Assembly (NCBI GenBank): GCA_027492035.1
Contig: JAOZFT010000039.1
Coordinates: 1-8,492 of the forward strand
Direction of reading: 5' to 3'
DNA from: Thermoproteota archaeon
GTDB taxonomy: Archaea; Korarchaeota; JAOZGF01; JAOZFZ01
DNA: 8,492 nucleotides
Shown here: positions 371 to 6,948 of the stretch, piece after piece
Layout of the letters: each line of letters starts with the position of its first letter
How positions within the stretch are numbered: the stretch's first letter is position 1
Notes under the pieces: generated by a model
Told to the model about the DNA's origin: nothing
The model's input: only the letters and a program-made list of their open reading frames with translations
The model's database searches: none
Made by a program: the position numbers and the translations under genes

Positions 371-598
371 ATGAAAAGTGTAACTATAACAGTGAGAATA
401 TCTAAAAGGCTTAAAGAGAGCCTTGACAGATATGGAGTTGAAGTGAGTAAAGTGGTGAGGGAGGCGCTTGAGAAAGAGGTTAAAAGGAGAAAACTTGAGG
501 ATCTCAAGAGGGTTGCAGGTGAATTAGGGGTTTTCTTCTCGAAGATACCCGATGAGAAGATAGTTAAAAGCATAAAGGAGACTCGGAGGTCTAGATAA
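371..598 (+). CDS. vapB: VapB-type antitoxin (ribbon-helix-helix-like)
   Basis: This 75-residue protein begins with a short beta strand (residues 3-9, SVTITVRIS). Two amphipathic helices follow, including LKESLDRYG and VSKVVREALEKEVKRRK, the layout of a ribbon-helix-helix DNA-binding domain. The charged tail (residues 40-75) would be the toxin-binding part. Such antitoxins neutralise the partner PIN nuclease and repress their own operon. The neighbouring PIN toxin starts 2 nt after this stop codon, a standard vapBC arrangement. The ATG at 371 is chosen because it follows a TATA box at the right distance. The assignment leans on length, fold pattern and the partner gene rather than on a strong sequence signature. 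Confidence 0.8.
   Translation: MKSVTITVRISKRLKESLDRYGVEVSKVVREALEKEVKRRKLEDLKRVAGELGVFFSKIPDEKIVKSIKETRRSR
585..590 (+). promoter_or_regulatory. Ribosome binding site of vapC
   Basis: GGAGGT inside the last codons of vapB lies 10 nt before the GTG at 601. It supports GTG as the start of vapC and independent ribosome loading within the operon. Confidence 0.6.
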
Positions 599-600
599 AC

Positions 601-1017
601 GTGTATCTCTTGGATGCAAGCGCTATAGCTATAACCCTTAAAAAGCTTAAAGAAAGGTCAGTTGAGGTTTTAGAGGACAAAGCAACCTTAGACCTTGCCC
701 GTTACGAATTAAGCAATGTAATATGGAAGGAATGTACATTGGAAGGGCTAATAAGTTCTGAGGAAGCTGCGGTTAAAGCCGAGAACATAGCGAAGATACT
801 GGAGATCACAAAGGAAGAGAGGGTAGAGTCCAGTAAAGACTTTAGAGGAGCGATGGAGTTAGCTACAAAGCTGAAACTAACCTTCTATGATGCTTCATAC
901 CTATATGTAGCCAAAAAAGAGGGATTTACCTTAATAACAGAGGACAAAGAACTCCTCGAGAAGGCGAAGCATATTAAAGTTGAAACCTTAACGACAGATG
1001 AGTTTCTGGGGATCTAA
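601..1017 (+). CDS. vapC: VapC-type PIN-domain ribonuclease toxin
   Basis: This 138-residue protein has the size and motif order of a PIN-domain toxin. The acidic metal-binding residues are in place: D5 in LLDASAI, E36 in YELSNVIWKE, D97 in TFYDASYLYVA and D115 in LITEDKEL. VapC toxins are Mg2+/Mn2+-dependent endoribonucleases that cut tRNA, rRNA or mRNA when freed from VapB; the target here cannot be told. The GTG start is 2 nt after the vapB stop and is preceded by GGAGGT. The catalytic set is complete and the frame intact, so the toxin is probably active. No clear terminator follows. Confidence 0.92.
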   Translation: MYLLDASAIAITLKKLKERSVEVLEDKATLDLARYELSNVIWKECTLEGLISSEEAAVKAENIAKILEITKEERVESSKDFRGAMELATKLKLTFYDASYLYVAKKEGFTLITEDKELLEKAKHIKVETLTTDEFLGI

Positions 1018-1435: not shown

Positions 1436-1942
1436 ATGTTTAGAGCATTGTTAGCATTTATATTGGAAATGGAACCAAAAAAATTTAGGGGAGAAATTAA
1501 AAAGACAGTAGAGTGGGGGAAAGTGGACAATAAGGAGGAATCTTTAAGATTGCTTAAAGAAGCTGAGGAAGATCTTGAGAGGGCTAAAAGATATATTAAG
1601 CTTAAGGATTGGGTTACGGTCATCCATTATGCACAGCTTGCAATTGAGAAATCTGCGAAAGCTGTGATTTCCTGCTTTGAAGCATATGAGTGGACACATG
1701 ATCCGTCGGGACAATTGAATAAATTAATTGAAAAGGGGTATTTAGATGAGGATTTCAAGAAAGTAGCTTCCCATGTAAAAGAAGCGGCGCCGTGGCACGG
1801 GCGTTCAACGTATGGGGGTTTAAGGGGTGGTGCATGGAGAAGTCCATCTGAGCTATGCACTGAAAACGATGCAAGAAGACTACTTCAAAAAGCAGTGGAA
1901 TGCATGGGTAAAGCAAAGGAATTTACAGGAAAATTTTGGTGA
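1436..1942 (+). CDS. HEPN-domain protein, partner of the MNT nucleotidyltransferase
   Basis: Residues ~36-77 (SLRLLKEAEEDLERAKRYI, then HYAQLAIEKSAKAVI) show the typical start of a HEPN domain, and the last ~25 residues form its closing helix. HEPN proteins are all-helical and often RNases held in check by an MNT partner. The next gene is such an MNT and overlaps this stop by 1 nt. No R-X4-6-H nuclease motif is visible, so this may be a non-catalytic or divergent member. The start is uncertain: ATG 1436 and ATG 1469 would add a non-HEPN leader that seems inherited from a degraded upstream gene. GTG 1523 (residue 30 of the longest frame) gives a HEPN protein of normal size, about 139 residues. 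No good ribosome site decides among them. Confidence 0.75.
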   Translation: MFRALLAFILEMEPKKFRGEIKKTVEWGKVDNKEESLRLLKEAEEDLERAKRYIKLKDWVTVIHYAQLAIEKSAKAVISCFEAYEWTHDPSGQLNKLIEKGYLDEDFKKVASHVKEAAPWHGRSTYGGLRGGAWRSPSELCTENDARRLLQKAVECMGKAKEFTGKFW

Positions 1943-2385
1943 TGGAAATGATAGAAGAGGTTAAGGGAGAAGTAGAAAGGATCGCGAAAAACTTAAGGAA
2001 GGAAACCTTGGCGGTGGGTTTATTCGGTTCCCTGGCAAGAGGGGAATTTAATGAGAAAAGTGATATTGACATATTCGTCATCACAAGTAAGGAGCTAACG
2101 CTAAAAGAGCAGGATGAGTTTTATTATGCGTTTAGTGAATTGATACCGAGGTTTGGCAGGGATGTCACGGTTCTTGTTTACGACATAGAAAGTTTAAAGA
2201 AGATTCCAAGTTGGCAAACATTCAATCTCATAAGAGATGCAATATTTGTACACGATGTCTCTGGGATAGAAAAAATATTTAAGGATATCTTGAGGAAAGC
2301 CGAGCAGCATGGCATAGTATATGATGAAAAGGAAAGGGTTTTCAAGTTAAAAAAGAAGGGGAGAATAGTTTTCTCTTATGGATAG
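1942..2385 (+). CDS. MNT-type nucleotidyltransferase (MntA-like antitoxin)
   Basis: The ~147-residue protein carries the minimal nucleotidyltransferase signature: FGSLARGEF, then SDIDIFV (the GS...DxD metal site, D41 and D43 counted from ATG 1942). A third acidic residue follows in GRDVTVLV (D74). All catalytic residues are present. In studied HEPN/MNT systems the MNT protein inactivates the HEPN toxin by adding AMP to it; inferred here from family and pairing. The frame is open from TTG 1936, but ATG 1942 shares its A with the HEPN stop (TGATG), a common coupling arrangement, and is preferred; ATG 1948 is also possible. The reading frame is undamaged. Confidence 0.85.
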   Translation: MEMIEEVKGEVERIAKNLRKETLAVGLFGSLARGEFNEKSDIDIFVITSKELTLKEQDEFYYAFSELIPRFGRDVTVLVYDIESLKKIPSWQTFNLIRDAIFVHDVSGIEKIFKDILRKAEQHGIVYDEKERVFKLKKKGRIVFSYG

Positions 2386-2459: not shown

Positions 2460-3322
2460 TTATTTGGATCCTGGCTGCTTCGGCGCTGCAGGTTTGATTC
2501 CGATCGTCAGGTTAAGTGTTAACTCTCCGGATTCAAATAATTTAACGGCTCCTATGTTATTTAGGTGGACAAGTGCTCTAGCATAGTACTCCCATAGAAT
2601 TTTCCAAAGGGGATCCTGCTGGTTCATCACTGAAATCCTTAAGCCGAGATTCCTTGCCTCCTGGTAGCCTATCCTTTTACCATGTGAAAGCCATCTCCTG
2701 TTATCAGATAAAGCATCTGCTATATTCTTAGCTTTCCCTGGATAGCCTTTGAACATATATTTTGAAAGCCACTCCTCTGCAAATTTCCTTGAGAACTGTA
2801 TGGCCTTATTTGCTACGTCCAAGAGTGAAGGATCAATTTTTTGTATTAAAGCAATGGTCACTCGTGGATCTAATCCCTTTTTAAGGGCATCATGTACAAT
2901 CCTAAACTGTCTATGATTGATTGAGCAGGTATATAGGTTATTTGCCCCTGTGGAGTTACAGCTCTAATTTGAGGATCAATAGGGCCTATTTCTGATAGGT
3001 AACCCATAATTATTTCATCACTTGCAAGGGCTATCATAGTTGCAGCACTTTTAGCTGCATTGGGAATGATCACTCGAAATTGATATTTACAATAGCTTCT
3101 ACACATAAATGCAATTTTTTCAGCGATATTTGGGTCTCCCCCAGGACTGTCAATTACTAAGTCAAGTTTATCTGTTTGGCCTATGCTTTCAAGTACATCG
3201 TTAAAGAATACAGGGTCATTGTGGTCTATGAAGTTAGGGGACACATTTGGGTTAGCTATGTATGCAATGATCCTTGTACCAGTGATATTTTCTGCTTTTC
3301 TAAGGAGGCTTCTCCTATTCAA
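2460..3322 (-). pseudogene. SDH-type serine protease (ClpP/S49-like), frameshifted
   Basis: Two minus-strand frames together make one protein of the SDH family (serine dehydrogenase proteinase, PF01972-like), about 287 residues, the normal length. The first frame (3322 to 2870) has LDLVIDSPGGDP (residues 53-64), the nucleophile region AKSAATMIALASDEI (K91-S92) and SEIGPIDPQI. The second (2460 to about 2893) has SLLDVANKAI, KFAEEWL and LSHGKRIGYQEARNLGL. They join if one base is added near 2890-2898, turning LGLYMM into LGL(Y)HDALKKGLDPR. The start is TTG 3322 with GGAG just upstream. Intact relatives are cytosolic or membrane-near serine peptidases of unclear substrate. The lesion leaves the catalytic half separated, so activity is doubtful. 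A sequencing error or recoding is possible. Confidence 0.8.
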
Positions 3323-3918: not shown

Positions 3919-3975
3919 ATGGGCAAGGAAGAAACTGGAAAGATTGAACCTATTTATGAGAAGCTCAGCCTTTAA
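3919..3975 (+). CDS. 18-residue ORF with an archaeal-type promoter (possible gene remnant)
   Basis: An ATG placed as expected for a short-leader message opens a frame of 18 codons (MGKEETGKIEPIYEKLSL), ending in TAA exactly where the convergent surface-protein gene ends. The peptide is charged and lacks any signal or membrane segment. It could be a genuine small protein, but the abrupt end at the neighbour's stop suggests the surviving 5' end of a longer gene whose body was lost when the neighbouring operon was joined here. I do not recognise the sequence. Confidence 0.3.
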   Translation: MGKEETGKIEPIYEKLSL

Positions 3976-5468
3976 CTATTTCTTGGTGAACCGGGTTTAT
4001 ACCTATAAAATTCGCCGAAGCCATAGACGTCTTCAACCTTTATTGTTTCATTTCTCAGAGTCACTGTTCCCCTCCACTTCACAAAGGAGCGACCCCAAGC
4101 AGCTTTGCCACCGGGGTCCCACCATGTTTTATGCACCCTCCAGTTTTCAGTGCCTCCCCACCCCCAAAAGGCGAAGGCTTCAGCTGTTAAGTTTACATTG
4201 CCAACAACTATTTTATTAGCATCGGTGAAATTCCCCTTCAAATAATATACGTTTGGCTGTAATTTATCGTCGGTGCTGAATATGTAATCGTCAAACCTGT
4301 AACTTTCCCCCCTGCTGACAAAGTTTATTCTCCCTGTATGCTCGAATTCAGGGAATTCAAACTTCTCCTTCAATTTCTCTGGCAGTGGATTTCTTGCTAA
4401 GAGAAATATAAATTCTATTTCCTCCCCTTTAATTTTATGGAAGGACATAGCGTCAAATTCCACACCATCTGTTGCAATGCCGTTTTTAATGGTTACTGAG
4501 CCTATGGGGAGATTTCTGTGGTACTCTCTGTCCATGAATGTGAAGCCTGAGGTGAAGTTATAGGTTTTCCCTGTTTCCAGGTCGTGGTACACACATTTTG
4601 TTAACTCCTCAAAGTCTAGGTACCCTCCCCAGGTGTCGAGGCAAAGTTGACCAGCTTTGATCCCAGAGACTCCATGAACAAGGAAGGGGCCTTCAGGTTT
4701 CCCTATCCAAAGTGGAATAAGTCTGCCTTTACCTTCAACATTTAGAATCTCTGTGGGAGGAGAAGTTTTCATGTAGATTACCTTGTGATACCAGGTTCTT
4801 GTCTCCTCATCGTAACCAATGGTGATCACATAATCTTCTACTGGATTGGTGTGAACGGTTGGGTGGGGGAGAAATTTCCCACTTATGTCATAGTATGAAG
4901 CCCCTGTGACCTTTCTGAATATCCGTTTATCATCAAACATTAACCGTAGAAACCCGCCACCTATGTTTACCGATGAATGGAAGATGATGATGTGACTTCC
5001 ATCTGTGCACATGCCAAATGAAACAAAGTTACTTGCCGTCCATCCCTTTCTTCTGTCGATTGCTATTCTGTTATCGGGGAGTTTCACCAGGGGGCCTCGG
5101 AAAGGCACAAAGTCTCGTAGTGTAACTGGATCTGTTATCCATGAATTACTTTTCACAACTGGGAAAGAGGGTAAAAGAAGTTTACCTGCTTTTTCTAGGG
5201 TCTCAAAAGCTTTATCTAGGAATGTATTTGCGGCTTCATAATCTTTTTCTTTGAAAGCCTGCTTTGCCTTCCTTATCCATTTCTCAGCCTCGGAAACCTC
5301 AAGGCCCTGTTTTTTCTTTTCCTGGTACTTGACTTTGAACTCAGAGAACCTTTGAATCAGCTGCTCCTTTGTAATAGGTTTATGGAGTAAATGGAAACTA
5401 AGGATTAAAATGATTACCGCTGCTAGAATGCAAACTGTAACTAAGATTTTTTTGTTCGTTTCAACCAC
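3972..5468 (-). CDS. Membrane-anchored extracytoplasmic protein with helical module and beta-rich domain
   Basis: This 498-residue protein has an uncleaved-looking N-terminal membrane segment (residues 8-28, after basic KK). A helical module follows (~33-95: FKVKYQEKKKQG, then AEKWIRKAKQAF, then AANTFLDKAFETLEKA) that is clearly related to the same part of the upstream gene product. The rest (~100-498) is rich in Trp, Gly, Phe and short beta strands, for example FAFWGWGG and EDVYGFGEFYRY, as in secreted sugar-binding or lipocalin/CrtC-like folds; I cannot assign a family. The GTG start at 5468 overlaps the upstream gene by 8 nt, and AAGGAAGG lies just ahead, so translation is probably coupled. 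It is likely exposed outside the cell and works with its operon partner. The frame is intact. Confidence 0.7.
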   Translation of the reverse strand: MVETNKKILVTVCILAAVIILILSFHLLHKPITKEQLIQRFSEFKVKYQEKKKQGLEVSEAEKWIRKAKQAFKEKDYEAANTFLDKAFETLEKAGKLLLPSFPVVKSNSWITDPVTLRDFVPFRGPLVKLPDNRIAIDRRKGWTASNFVSFGMCTDGSHIIIFHSSVNIGGGFLRLMFDDKRIFRKVTGASYYDISGKFLPHPTVHTNPVEDYVITIGYDEETRTWYHKVIYMKTSPPTEILNVEGKGRLIPLWIGKPEGPFLVHGVSGIKAGQLCLDTWGGYLDFEELTKCVYHDLETGKTYNFTSGFTFMDREYHRNLPIGSVTIKNGIATDGVEFDAMSFHKIKGEEIEFIFLLARNPLPEKLKEKFEFPEFEHTGRINFVSRGESYRFDDYIFSTDDKLQPNVYYLKGNFTDANKIVVGNVNLTAEAFAFWGWGGTENWRVHKTWWDPGGKAAWGRSFVKWRGTVTLRNETIKVEDVYGFGEFYRYKPGSPRNS

Positions 5469-6948
5469 CCCCCTTCCTTTGAGAAAGCTCCTTTATCGTT
5501 TCATAGGTTTGAAACTCAGGTGAAAGTGAATCATAAACCCTGGATTTCCCGAATGAAAGTATTTCTGCATCTACACCCATTGTTCCACCGTGAACTGGGT
5601 AGATAAAGATAACCCCCCTTTCAGTAAAGAAGCTATCAGCTATTTCCAAAAACACTTTTTGTTCTTCTTTACTTAATTTTTGACTAAACACACCTAGCGG
5701 AGTTTTTGTAGTCGCTGCCCAATCTATAAAGGCGAACACTGGGATGTCACCAAATTTCTGTTTAACAGCTTTTAGTTTCTCATCCCATTTTTCTCCGTCA
5801 AGTTTCATTTCCATTATTTCTTTAGCTGAAGGACTTGAAGTAACAAAGTCAAGGTTTGGCGGTGGATAGGGGTACATCGCAGCAGTTGCCCAACTACCTA
5901 CATACACGTATCTACCCTTAGCATCTCCATACCTGTGGATTTCATCCACGATTTTACAAGCTGCCTCATAGCTCTCTTTCACTGCTGGGTGATTAATGTC
6001 CTTTGTAATTTTTGCAAGTATCTTTGACTGGGTAAAAAGCATGTCAATCCATATGGCATCTGCACCTGCATCAATTTGTCTTTCAGCCCAGCTTAGGAGA
6101 AGCTCTTGGAATTTTGGATTGGTTAGGTCTGGAAAGTACGCTGTTACATTTTCAGGGTCATAGAATCTGCAATCTAAATCCCTTGGAACCCATAAATGGG
6201 TTTTGCCAAATTCACATTGAAACCTTTCCTTTGATACATTGATCCCCAGTTTTTGAGGGTCTAAAGCAAGTTTCCATGTTTCCGGGTACCTTATAACTTC
6301 TTCTGTTTCAGGGTTCCAAACAACTCCCTTATGGATTATTTGGGAGGGAATAGCCCCGCAGAAAATTACATTCGGTATCTCAGCTTTTATCTTTGAAATC
6401 ACGTTTTTTAGGTGTTCATAGCTGTAACCAGTGAATTTACATCTTTGCTTAGCTCTGAGAGACAGTAACTGTTCACATTTATTTGGACAGGGACTCCATC
6501 TCCAAAAACCCCTAAAAATGAAATCAGTTCCGGTCTCCCTAAGTAAGTCTATGACTTCCTCAATACTTCTATTTATAATGGCGCCATCAGTTACTCTTTC
6601 ATAGAGAGAAGCAACTTTAACCTTGGAAAGCCTTTCTTTAGCTTCCAAAGTAAAATTTTTGCATGTAGTGTTTGCAGAGGCTCTTTCTAAGGATTCAAAA
6701 GCACTGTTTAACAGTTCATTTGCCACCTTGTAATTCCCCCTTTTAAAATTCTCTTCAGCCTCCCTTGCTAAATCTTCAGCTTCTCTAAGGTCATAGCCCT
6801 GAGACTTCCTTTCTCCACATAGAATTTTAAAGGTTAAAAGTTTCTCCCTGAACCTTTCCTTCTCCAAGGTTGACGCATAGAAAACATGAAACACAGTTAT
6901 CAATACAGCAGCAACTACTAATACCCCAGTCAGGATTCTCCTACTCAT
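5461..6948 (-). CDS. Membrane-anchored TIM-barrel protein, probable glycoside hydrolase-like
   Basis: This 495-residue protein begins MSRR followed by a hydrophobic anchor (residues 5-25). A helical module (~33-90) matches that of the downstream gene product; the two align with an offset of four residues and share QG, EAE, AN and AFExLE positions. From ~120 the pattern is that of a (beta/alpha)8 barrel: GTDFIFRGFWRW (140-151), NVIFCGAIP, DAGADAIWIDMLF (293-305), RYVYVGSW, IPVFAFIDWA and GVIFIYPVHGG. D302 and D409 end barrel strands and are the best catalytic candidates. This suggests action on a polysaccharide or glycoprotein outside the cell, but no specific GH family is recognised. Several Cys (96, 154, 158, 170, 197, 245, 260, 331) could form disulfides. 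It is the first gene of a two-gene operon with its own TATA box. Confidence 0.7.
   Translation of the reverse strand: MSRRILTGVLVVAAVLITVFHVFYASTLEKERFREKLLTFKILCGERKSQGYDLREAEDLAREAEENFKRGNYKVANELLNSAFESLERASANTTCKNFTLEAKERLSKVKVASLYERVTDGAIINRSIEEVIDLLRETGTDFIFRGFWRWSPCPNKCEQLLSLRAKQRCKFTGYSYEHLKNVISKIKAEIPNVIFCGAIPSQIIHKGVVWNPETEEVIRYPETWKLALDPQKLGINVSKERFQCEFGKTHLWVPRDLDCRFYDPENVTAYFPDLTNPKFQELLLSWAERQIDAGADAIWIDMLFTQSKILAKITKDINHPAVKESYEAACKIVDEIHRYGDAKGRYVYVGSWATAAMYPYPPPNLDFVTSSPSAKEIMEMKLDGEKWDEKLKAVKQKFGDIPVFAFIDWAATTKTPLGVFSQKLSKEEQKVFLEIADSFFTERGVIFIYPVHGGTMGVDAEILSFGKSRVYDSLSPEFQTYETIKELSQRKGGG

Follow-up and report, generated by a model that had tools for sequence, protein, structure and literature searches.

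In the glycoside hydrolase (GH) TmGH191 the acids are Asp156 and Glu225, and in PelA they are Asp160 and Glu223 (PMC12054363). Among proteins of the AttH/CrtC type, CrtC protonates its substrate via Asp268 amid conserved tryptophans (Trp110, Trp283 and Trp285) (PMC12402844), and CghA has been termed AttH-like (PMC8159843). Here we describe two overlapping genes of a Thermoproteota archaeon whose products are predicted to combine folds of these two kinds, one encoding a protein with a glycosidase-like barrel (the barrel protein) and the other a protein with an all-β outer domain (the beta protein). The window, which is the whole stretch of DNA analysed, is the entire 8,492-bp contig JAOZFT010000039.1 (C2) of an assembly that totals 1.87 Mb over 42 contigs and is 93% complete, and the comparison set for its own phylum comprised 29 genomes. 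This pair of unclassified surface proteins is real and recurrent, and joins known folds in an unusual combination. On balance, we regard it as probable that they are a glycosidase-like enzyme tethered to the surface and a partner with the AttH fold, itself an enzyme or a binding protein, that work on a common substrate, with a shared N-terminal module as a stalk.

As claimed in a first-pass annotation of this DNA, the two minus-strand open reading frames (ORFs; 6948-5461 and 5468-3972) exist and overlap by 8 nt. A purine-rich tract, AAAGGAAGGGGG, lies immediately ahead of the GTG of the beta gene, and the overlapping genes probably form a translationally coupled unit. Compared with the 96%-identical copies at locus L016, the ratio of nonsynonymous to synonymous substitution rates is 0.21 for the barrel gene (42 differences) and 0.27 for the beta gene (32 differences), values that, though drawn from few changes, suggest purifying selection on each gene. 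A 609-aa beta ORF at L016 was rejected as a genuine extension, its sequence passing into assembly Ns.

Predicted folds and conserved residues

The barrel protein is predicted to comprise an N-terminal membrane anchor, the helical module and a (β/α)8 glycosidase-like barrel at approximately residues 106-495. Its AlphaFold2 model, built from an alignment of 25 relatives, has a mean predicted local distance difference test score (pLDDT) of 91.4 and places an N-terminal helix at residues 3-49, followed by a helical hairpin up to residue 92 and an eight-strand barrel in which a large insertion separates strands 3 and 4; the TIM barrel proposed earlier for the upstream protein is thus recovered by the prediction. 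The top Foldseek matches are GH168, GH13, GH191 and GH31 enzymes, with E values of about 1e-7 to 1e-5 and PelA also in the list, and nearly all of the solved structural neighbours are glycosidases. VIA-align gives Z scores of about 17-19 (maximum 19.1) to many glycosidases, and since these scores are tied the barrel fold selects no CAZy family.

At the sequence level, the barrel protein matches no Pfam family at cut-off and has no credible match in NCBIfam. A local match to PF01055 (GH31), covering residues 260-304, reaches 16.0 bits and stays below the curated cut-off of 23.5; this family is matched by 15 of the 25 barrel family members, the best at 9e-5. A direct PDB search with the single barrel sequence returned no match, and with a profile the best E value was 0.066, that of the GH168 entry 9jom over ~55 positions, which is not significant.

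Residues D302, D409, D367, D297, H320, H453, W353, R127, K188, Q423, Y472 and D473 are invariant in all 27 barrel sequences. In the model D302 ends strand β4 and D409 lies just after strand β7, and these two would supply the conserved carboxylates of GH-type enzymes at the C-terminal ends of the strands. Both had been put forward as likely catalytic residues and they remain good candidates for the active site. D302 is the likely nucleophile, given its place at the end of strand 4, the span of the PF01055 match and the comparison with the Asp of TmGH191 and PelA. Candidates for the acid/base are D409, E377 (after β6; Glu in 24 of 27 sequences, Asp in two and Met in one) and perhaps E478. The spacing between D302 and E377 is 75, against 69 for Asp156/Glu225 of TmGH191, a comparison made on sequence positions. 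No Glu of the GH13 type stands at the end of β5, where the chain reads YVGSW353 with no conserved acid. The model is best read as an enzyme with a TIM barrel whose glycoside-hydrolase-like family is unclassified.

The same genome carries three further barrel copies (L014:7284-8529, L013:6139-7239 and L012:8769-9992). One of them is degenerate, with many stops (C9), one matches at 50% (C15), and one matches at 69%, is lipoprotein-like and has an extra N-terminal domain that is found on the barrel of genome G002 too. In Altiarchaeota and Thermoplasmata (L021, L022 and L023), several barrel genes or domains stand in tandem, with lipoprotein-like or signal N-termini.

For the beta protein, the predicted layout is an N-terminal membrane anchor, the helical module and an AttH/CrtC double-lipocalin domain at approximately residues 104-497, the outer domain being all-β in the AlphaFold2 model. 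VIA-align with this domain returned 14 entries of a single fold at Z 19.5-21.4 over 274-304 residues, including kievitone hydratase, CghA, Fsa2, Phm7, 25-phosphosteroid lyase and the AttH protein NE1406, and the next unrelated entry has a Z of 9.9 over 133 residues. On these scores and the gap that follows them, the modelled domain is a double lipocalin of the AttH/CrtC/kievitone-hydratase fold. Searches of Pfam at cut-off gave no family, neither CrtC (PF07143) nor another AttH match, and no credible match was found in NCBIfam or, with the beta family, among PDB sequences.

All 13 beta relatives share D277, W279, D312, R313, H316, N359, R379, Q403, W442, W449, W457, R459 and W464, and this invariant set of polar residues and tryptophans suggests a functional pocket and not a mere scaffold. 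Two of these residues, D277 and D312 (13/13 each), were considered as candidate counterparts of D268 of CrtC. The Trp/Gly-rich β domain had been taken for that of a binding protein; its all-β nature stands, but a role in binding alone fits poorly with the invariant polar and aromatic residues and with a fold typical of hydratases, lyases and Diels-Alderases. For the beta protein the probable role is that of a further enzyme, similar to a lyase or a hydratase, or of a partner that binds the barrel's substrate as a ligand.

Recurrence and genomic context of the pair

A scan of genome contigs yielded 17 barrel loci, and the beta protein is present in 8 of the 17 barrel genomes. The two genes are adjacent in the window and at L016, G002, L018, L019, L028, L029 and L064, are separated by one GH13-like gene at L030, and at L032 the beta gene lies beside a broken barrel gene. 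Homologues of the two genes therefore do recur together, adjacent or nearly so, at about ten loci in archaea and Acetothermia, although the families are rare. Both gene orders occur: the barrel gene precedes the beta gene in the window, L016, L029 and L032, and follows it in G002, L018, L019, L028, L030 and L064. The assembly of L018 is filed as Neomarinimicrobiota in GenBank, although the genome itself (G031) appears under the same phylum as the Acetothermia genome G041.

Both genes are present in two of 389 genomes in the phylum of L030 (4 beta, 5 barrel; P 8e-4) and, for the phylum of L028, in three of 100 (4 beta, 3 barrel; P 2.5e-5), P values that ignore phylogeny and are indicative only, both phyla having been picked as holding known members. 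Adjacency is the stronger evidence of pairing. In G433, the one extra beta genome of the L028 phylum, the contig stops just after the beta gene.

Carbohydrate-active neighbours or fusions were listed, without a base rate, at L018, L019, L022, L023, L026, L028, L030 and L114. They are GH13-like proteins at L022, L026 and L030, a GH13-type C-terminal fragment at L023, GH130 at L019, MGH1/GH63 at L018, GxGYxYP at L028 and a GH99-like protein at L114; moreover, the barrels of L018 and L028 are fused to segments bearing a GH13-type C-terminal domain. Several of the Thermoplasmata proteins terminate in Big_7 immunoglobulin domains, and one carries CBM_4_9. A carbohydrate-type context, in keeping with the first-pass annotation, is thus seen in relatives, where GH genes lie beside or are fused to pair members. 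No relatives of the pair were found in viral contigs and phage records, and there is no sign of a phage system.

The features of the window are listed in the table. The two ORFs with SDH_protease similarity together nearly fill the 286-position Pfam model, and their split would reflect a frameshift or an assembly error. Both copies of the direct repeat lie in short minus-strand ORFs with the common peptide KKKYRIEW-EIAE-TAFFNELGLTPY.

Features of the 8,492-bp window, with positions counted from its first nucleotide
Feature	Position	Strand	Remarks
Barrel protein gene (P0002)	5461..6948	-	495 aa, ATG start; ORF call, AlphaFold2, VIA-align, conservation
Beta protein gene (P0001)	3972..5468	-	GTG start; ORF call, AlphaFold2, VIA-align, conservation
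8-nt overlap GTGGTTGA	5461..5468	-	beta gene start GTG and barrel gene stop TGA
Barrel protein membrane anchor and TPR-like helical module, residues 1-95	6664..6948	-	
Beta protein membrane anchor and TPR-like helical module, first 96 codons	5181..5468	-	
D302 codon, end of strand β4, likely nucleophile	6043..6045	-	invariant 27/27; inside the PF01055 (GH31) local match 260-304
D409 codon, just past strand β7, second invariant carboxylate	5722..5724	-	invariant 27/27
RHH/CcdA-like antitoxin gene, then PIN-domain toxin gene	371-1017	+	likely toxin-antitoxin pair
HEPN and nucleotidyltransferase (MNT) genes	1436-2385	+	7-nt overlap; likely HEPN/MNT toxin-antitoxin pair
ClpP-like SDH_protease	2460-3322	-	apparently in two ORFs, 150 and 133 aa
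Direct repeat, 106 nt	116-221 and 3442-3547		copies 94% identical
Divergent winged-helix-type regulator genes, contig end	7791-8144 and 8218-8484	- and +	

The shared module and the function of the pair

The first-pass annotation had noted the same membrane anchor and helical module in both proteins, and the two N-termini are indeed homologous, with 37% identity over 92 aligned positions in BLASTP (E 3e-15; 9e-13 in a search of the own genome). Positions ~51-85 of the module fit the consensus tetratricopeptide repeat (TPR; best E 1.2e-10), and the module contains only about one unit, with no tandem repeats. Signal anchors or signal peptides are present in the complete members inspected, and such sequences are consistent with the outer location that had been proposed.

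From this shared module it had been suggested that the two proteins assemble on the membrane, which would place an enzyme beside a binding protein. TPR-type hairpins often mediate protein contacts, the two modules are homologous, and a search for other carriers in the genomes of the phylum found whole-module matches at E under 1e-6 exclusively on the barrel and beta families. Nevertheless, the distribution of the module among pairs is a poor fit to an obligatory interface. It is found on the beta protein of the window, L016, L029, L032, G002, G015, G025 and G028, and on the barrel protein of the window, L016 and L017/G003 only, so that only G000/G001, the family of the window, have it on the two partners alike. 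In the G002 and L029 pairs it is confined to the beta protein, the barrel of G002 being lipoprotein-like with a different N-terminal domain; the L018, L019, L030 and L064 pairs have it on neither, their beta proteins bearing simple signal sequences, and in the pairs from bacteria and Thermoplasmata one or both partners are without it. Conversely, L017/G003 has a barrel with the module in a genome where no beta gene was found. Similar hairpins also occur near the C-terminal membrane helix of P0003, another membrane protein encoded in this genome, which fits a generic stalk. Assembly through the module is thus quite unlikely, and the most economical reading is that the neighbouring genes share a stalk close to the membrane. 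A tree of module copies lacked resolution and leaves recent copying between the two genes undecided.

In the reading that we favour, the two overlapping genes would yield two extracytoplasmic proteins, each held on the archaeal membrane by its N-terminal signal anchor, with the TPR-like hairpin serving as a short stalk. The barrel would be a glycoside-hydrolase-like enzyme with D302 as nucleophile and D409 or E377 as acid/base, and the beta protein would work on the barrel's substrate as a lyase- or hydratase-like enzyme or as a ligand binder. Because members of the two families neighbour each other in distantly related microbes, frequently amid genes for sugar degradation, a shared surface molecule is their probable substrate, and this would most likely be a glycan, either alone or joined to a small hydrophobic molecule. 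Several observations weigh against this reading. The window's own 8.5-kb contig has no GH gene, and neither protein has a credible match among the curated families of Pfam and NCBIfam. The beta protein is absent from 9 of the 17 barrel genomes, and co-occurrence in the window's own phylum is marginal (four of 29 genomes with both, 7 beta and 8 barrel; P 0.07, again irrespective of phylogeny and indicative only). Confidence in the beta model is moderate (pLDDT 76.6), and AttH-fold proteins of known role have hydrophobic small molecules and not glycans as substrates. In the literature library searched, nothing relevant linked such proteins to glycosidases.

These known substrates would suit another explanation, in which the pair works on a lipid or terpenoid that is glycosylated and not on a polysaccharide: the barrel would strip the sugar, and the AttH-fold protein would hydrate, cyclise or eliminate on the hydrophobic portion thereby laid bare, much as CrtC acts through aromatic residues and an acidic Asp. 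Kievitone hydratase, the Diels-Alderases and 25-phosphosteroid lyase all act on hydrophobic molecules, and the several invariant Asp and Trp of the beta family recall Asp268, Trp110, Trp283 and Trp285 of CrtC (PMC12402844). However, the neighbours (GH13-like, GH99-like, GH130, GH63/MGH1, CBM_4_9 and Big_7) are those expected for glycan breakdown, and the invariant Arg, His, Asn and Gln of the beta family suggest a polar ligand, and we hold this explanation to be unlikely. The barrel could also be a surface protein that keeps the glycosidase fold without catalysis, as a glycan binder or a structural component. The end of β5 without a GH13-like Glu, the unclear acid/base and the degenerate copy in the same genome (C9) agree with this reading, but in archaea and bacteria alike D302, D409, D367, D473, H453 and Q423 never vary, and such residues are usually lost from pseudo-enzymes; we hold it to be very unlikely.

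The glycosidase reading draws on the predicted fold, the conserved acids and the neighbours. More tentatively, the beta family may be a new carbohydrate-active protein on an AttH/CrtC scaffold (a glycan lyase, hydrolase or transferase) that, on the cell surface in archaea and in candidate-phylum bacteria, works alongside a glycoside hydrolase family that is itself new. That the families were undescribed, as the first-pass annotation supposed, agrees with neither protein being named by the curated libraries searched, and for two such families their association provides a testable substrate hypothesis. If the favoured reading is true, it adds one more family of glycosidase-like proteins and, within the AttH/CrtC fold, a branch linked to carbohydrates; the two occur together in archaea and bacteria that are uncultured and whose sugar metabolism is not easily deduced from annotation.

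Comparison with known systems

Among the endo-galactosaminidases of families GH114, GH135, GH166 and GH191, which include TmGH191 and the hydrolase domain of PelA, the modelled barrel resembles TmGH191 with a Z of 18.6 (root-mean-square deviation 3.2, 267 residues aligned), a score that ties with those for GH13, GH168 and others. The barrel differs from these families by an identity of only ~10-12%, by the large insertion before β4 and by a second acid that is only putative. With the α-glucan enzymes of GH13 and GH31 it shares the barrel geometry (Z up to 19.1), an Asp at the end of β4, the local GH31 match of 16 bits and, at L018 and L028, the fusion to GH13-type C-terminal-domain segments, whereas it remains below the Pfam cut-off and misses the GH13 Glu at the end of β5. 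The module resembles the consensus of TPR repeat proteins (~51-85), but has approximately one repeat only and is fused to a membrane anchor. Finally, the beta domain has the double-lipocalin fold of the AttH/CrtC superfamily (kievitone hydratase, the Diels-Alderases CghA, Fsa2 and Phm7, 25-phosphosteroid lyase and NE1406) over ~275-300 residues, with 8-12% identity and no CrtC/AttH Pfam match, and its family is linked to glycosidase genes and not to terpene or polyketide genes.
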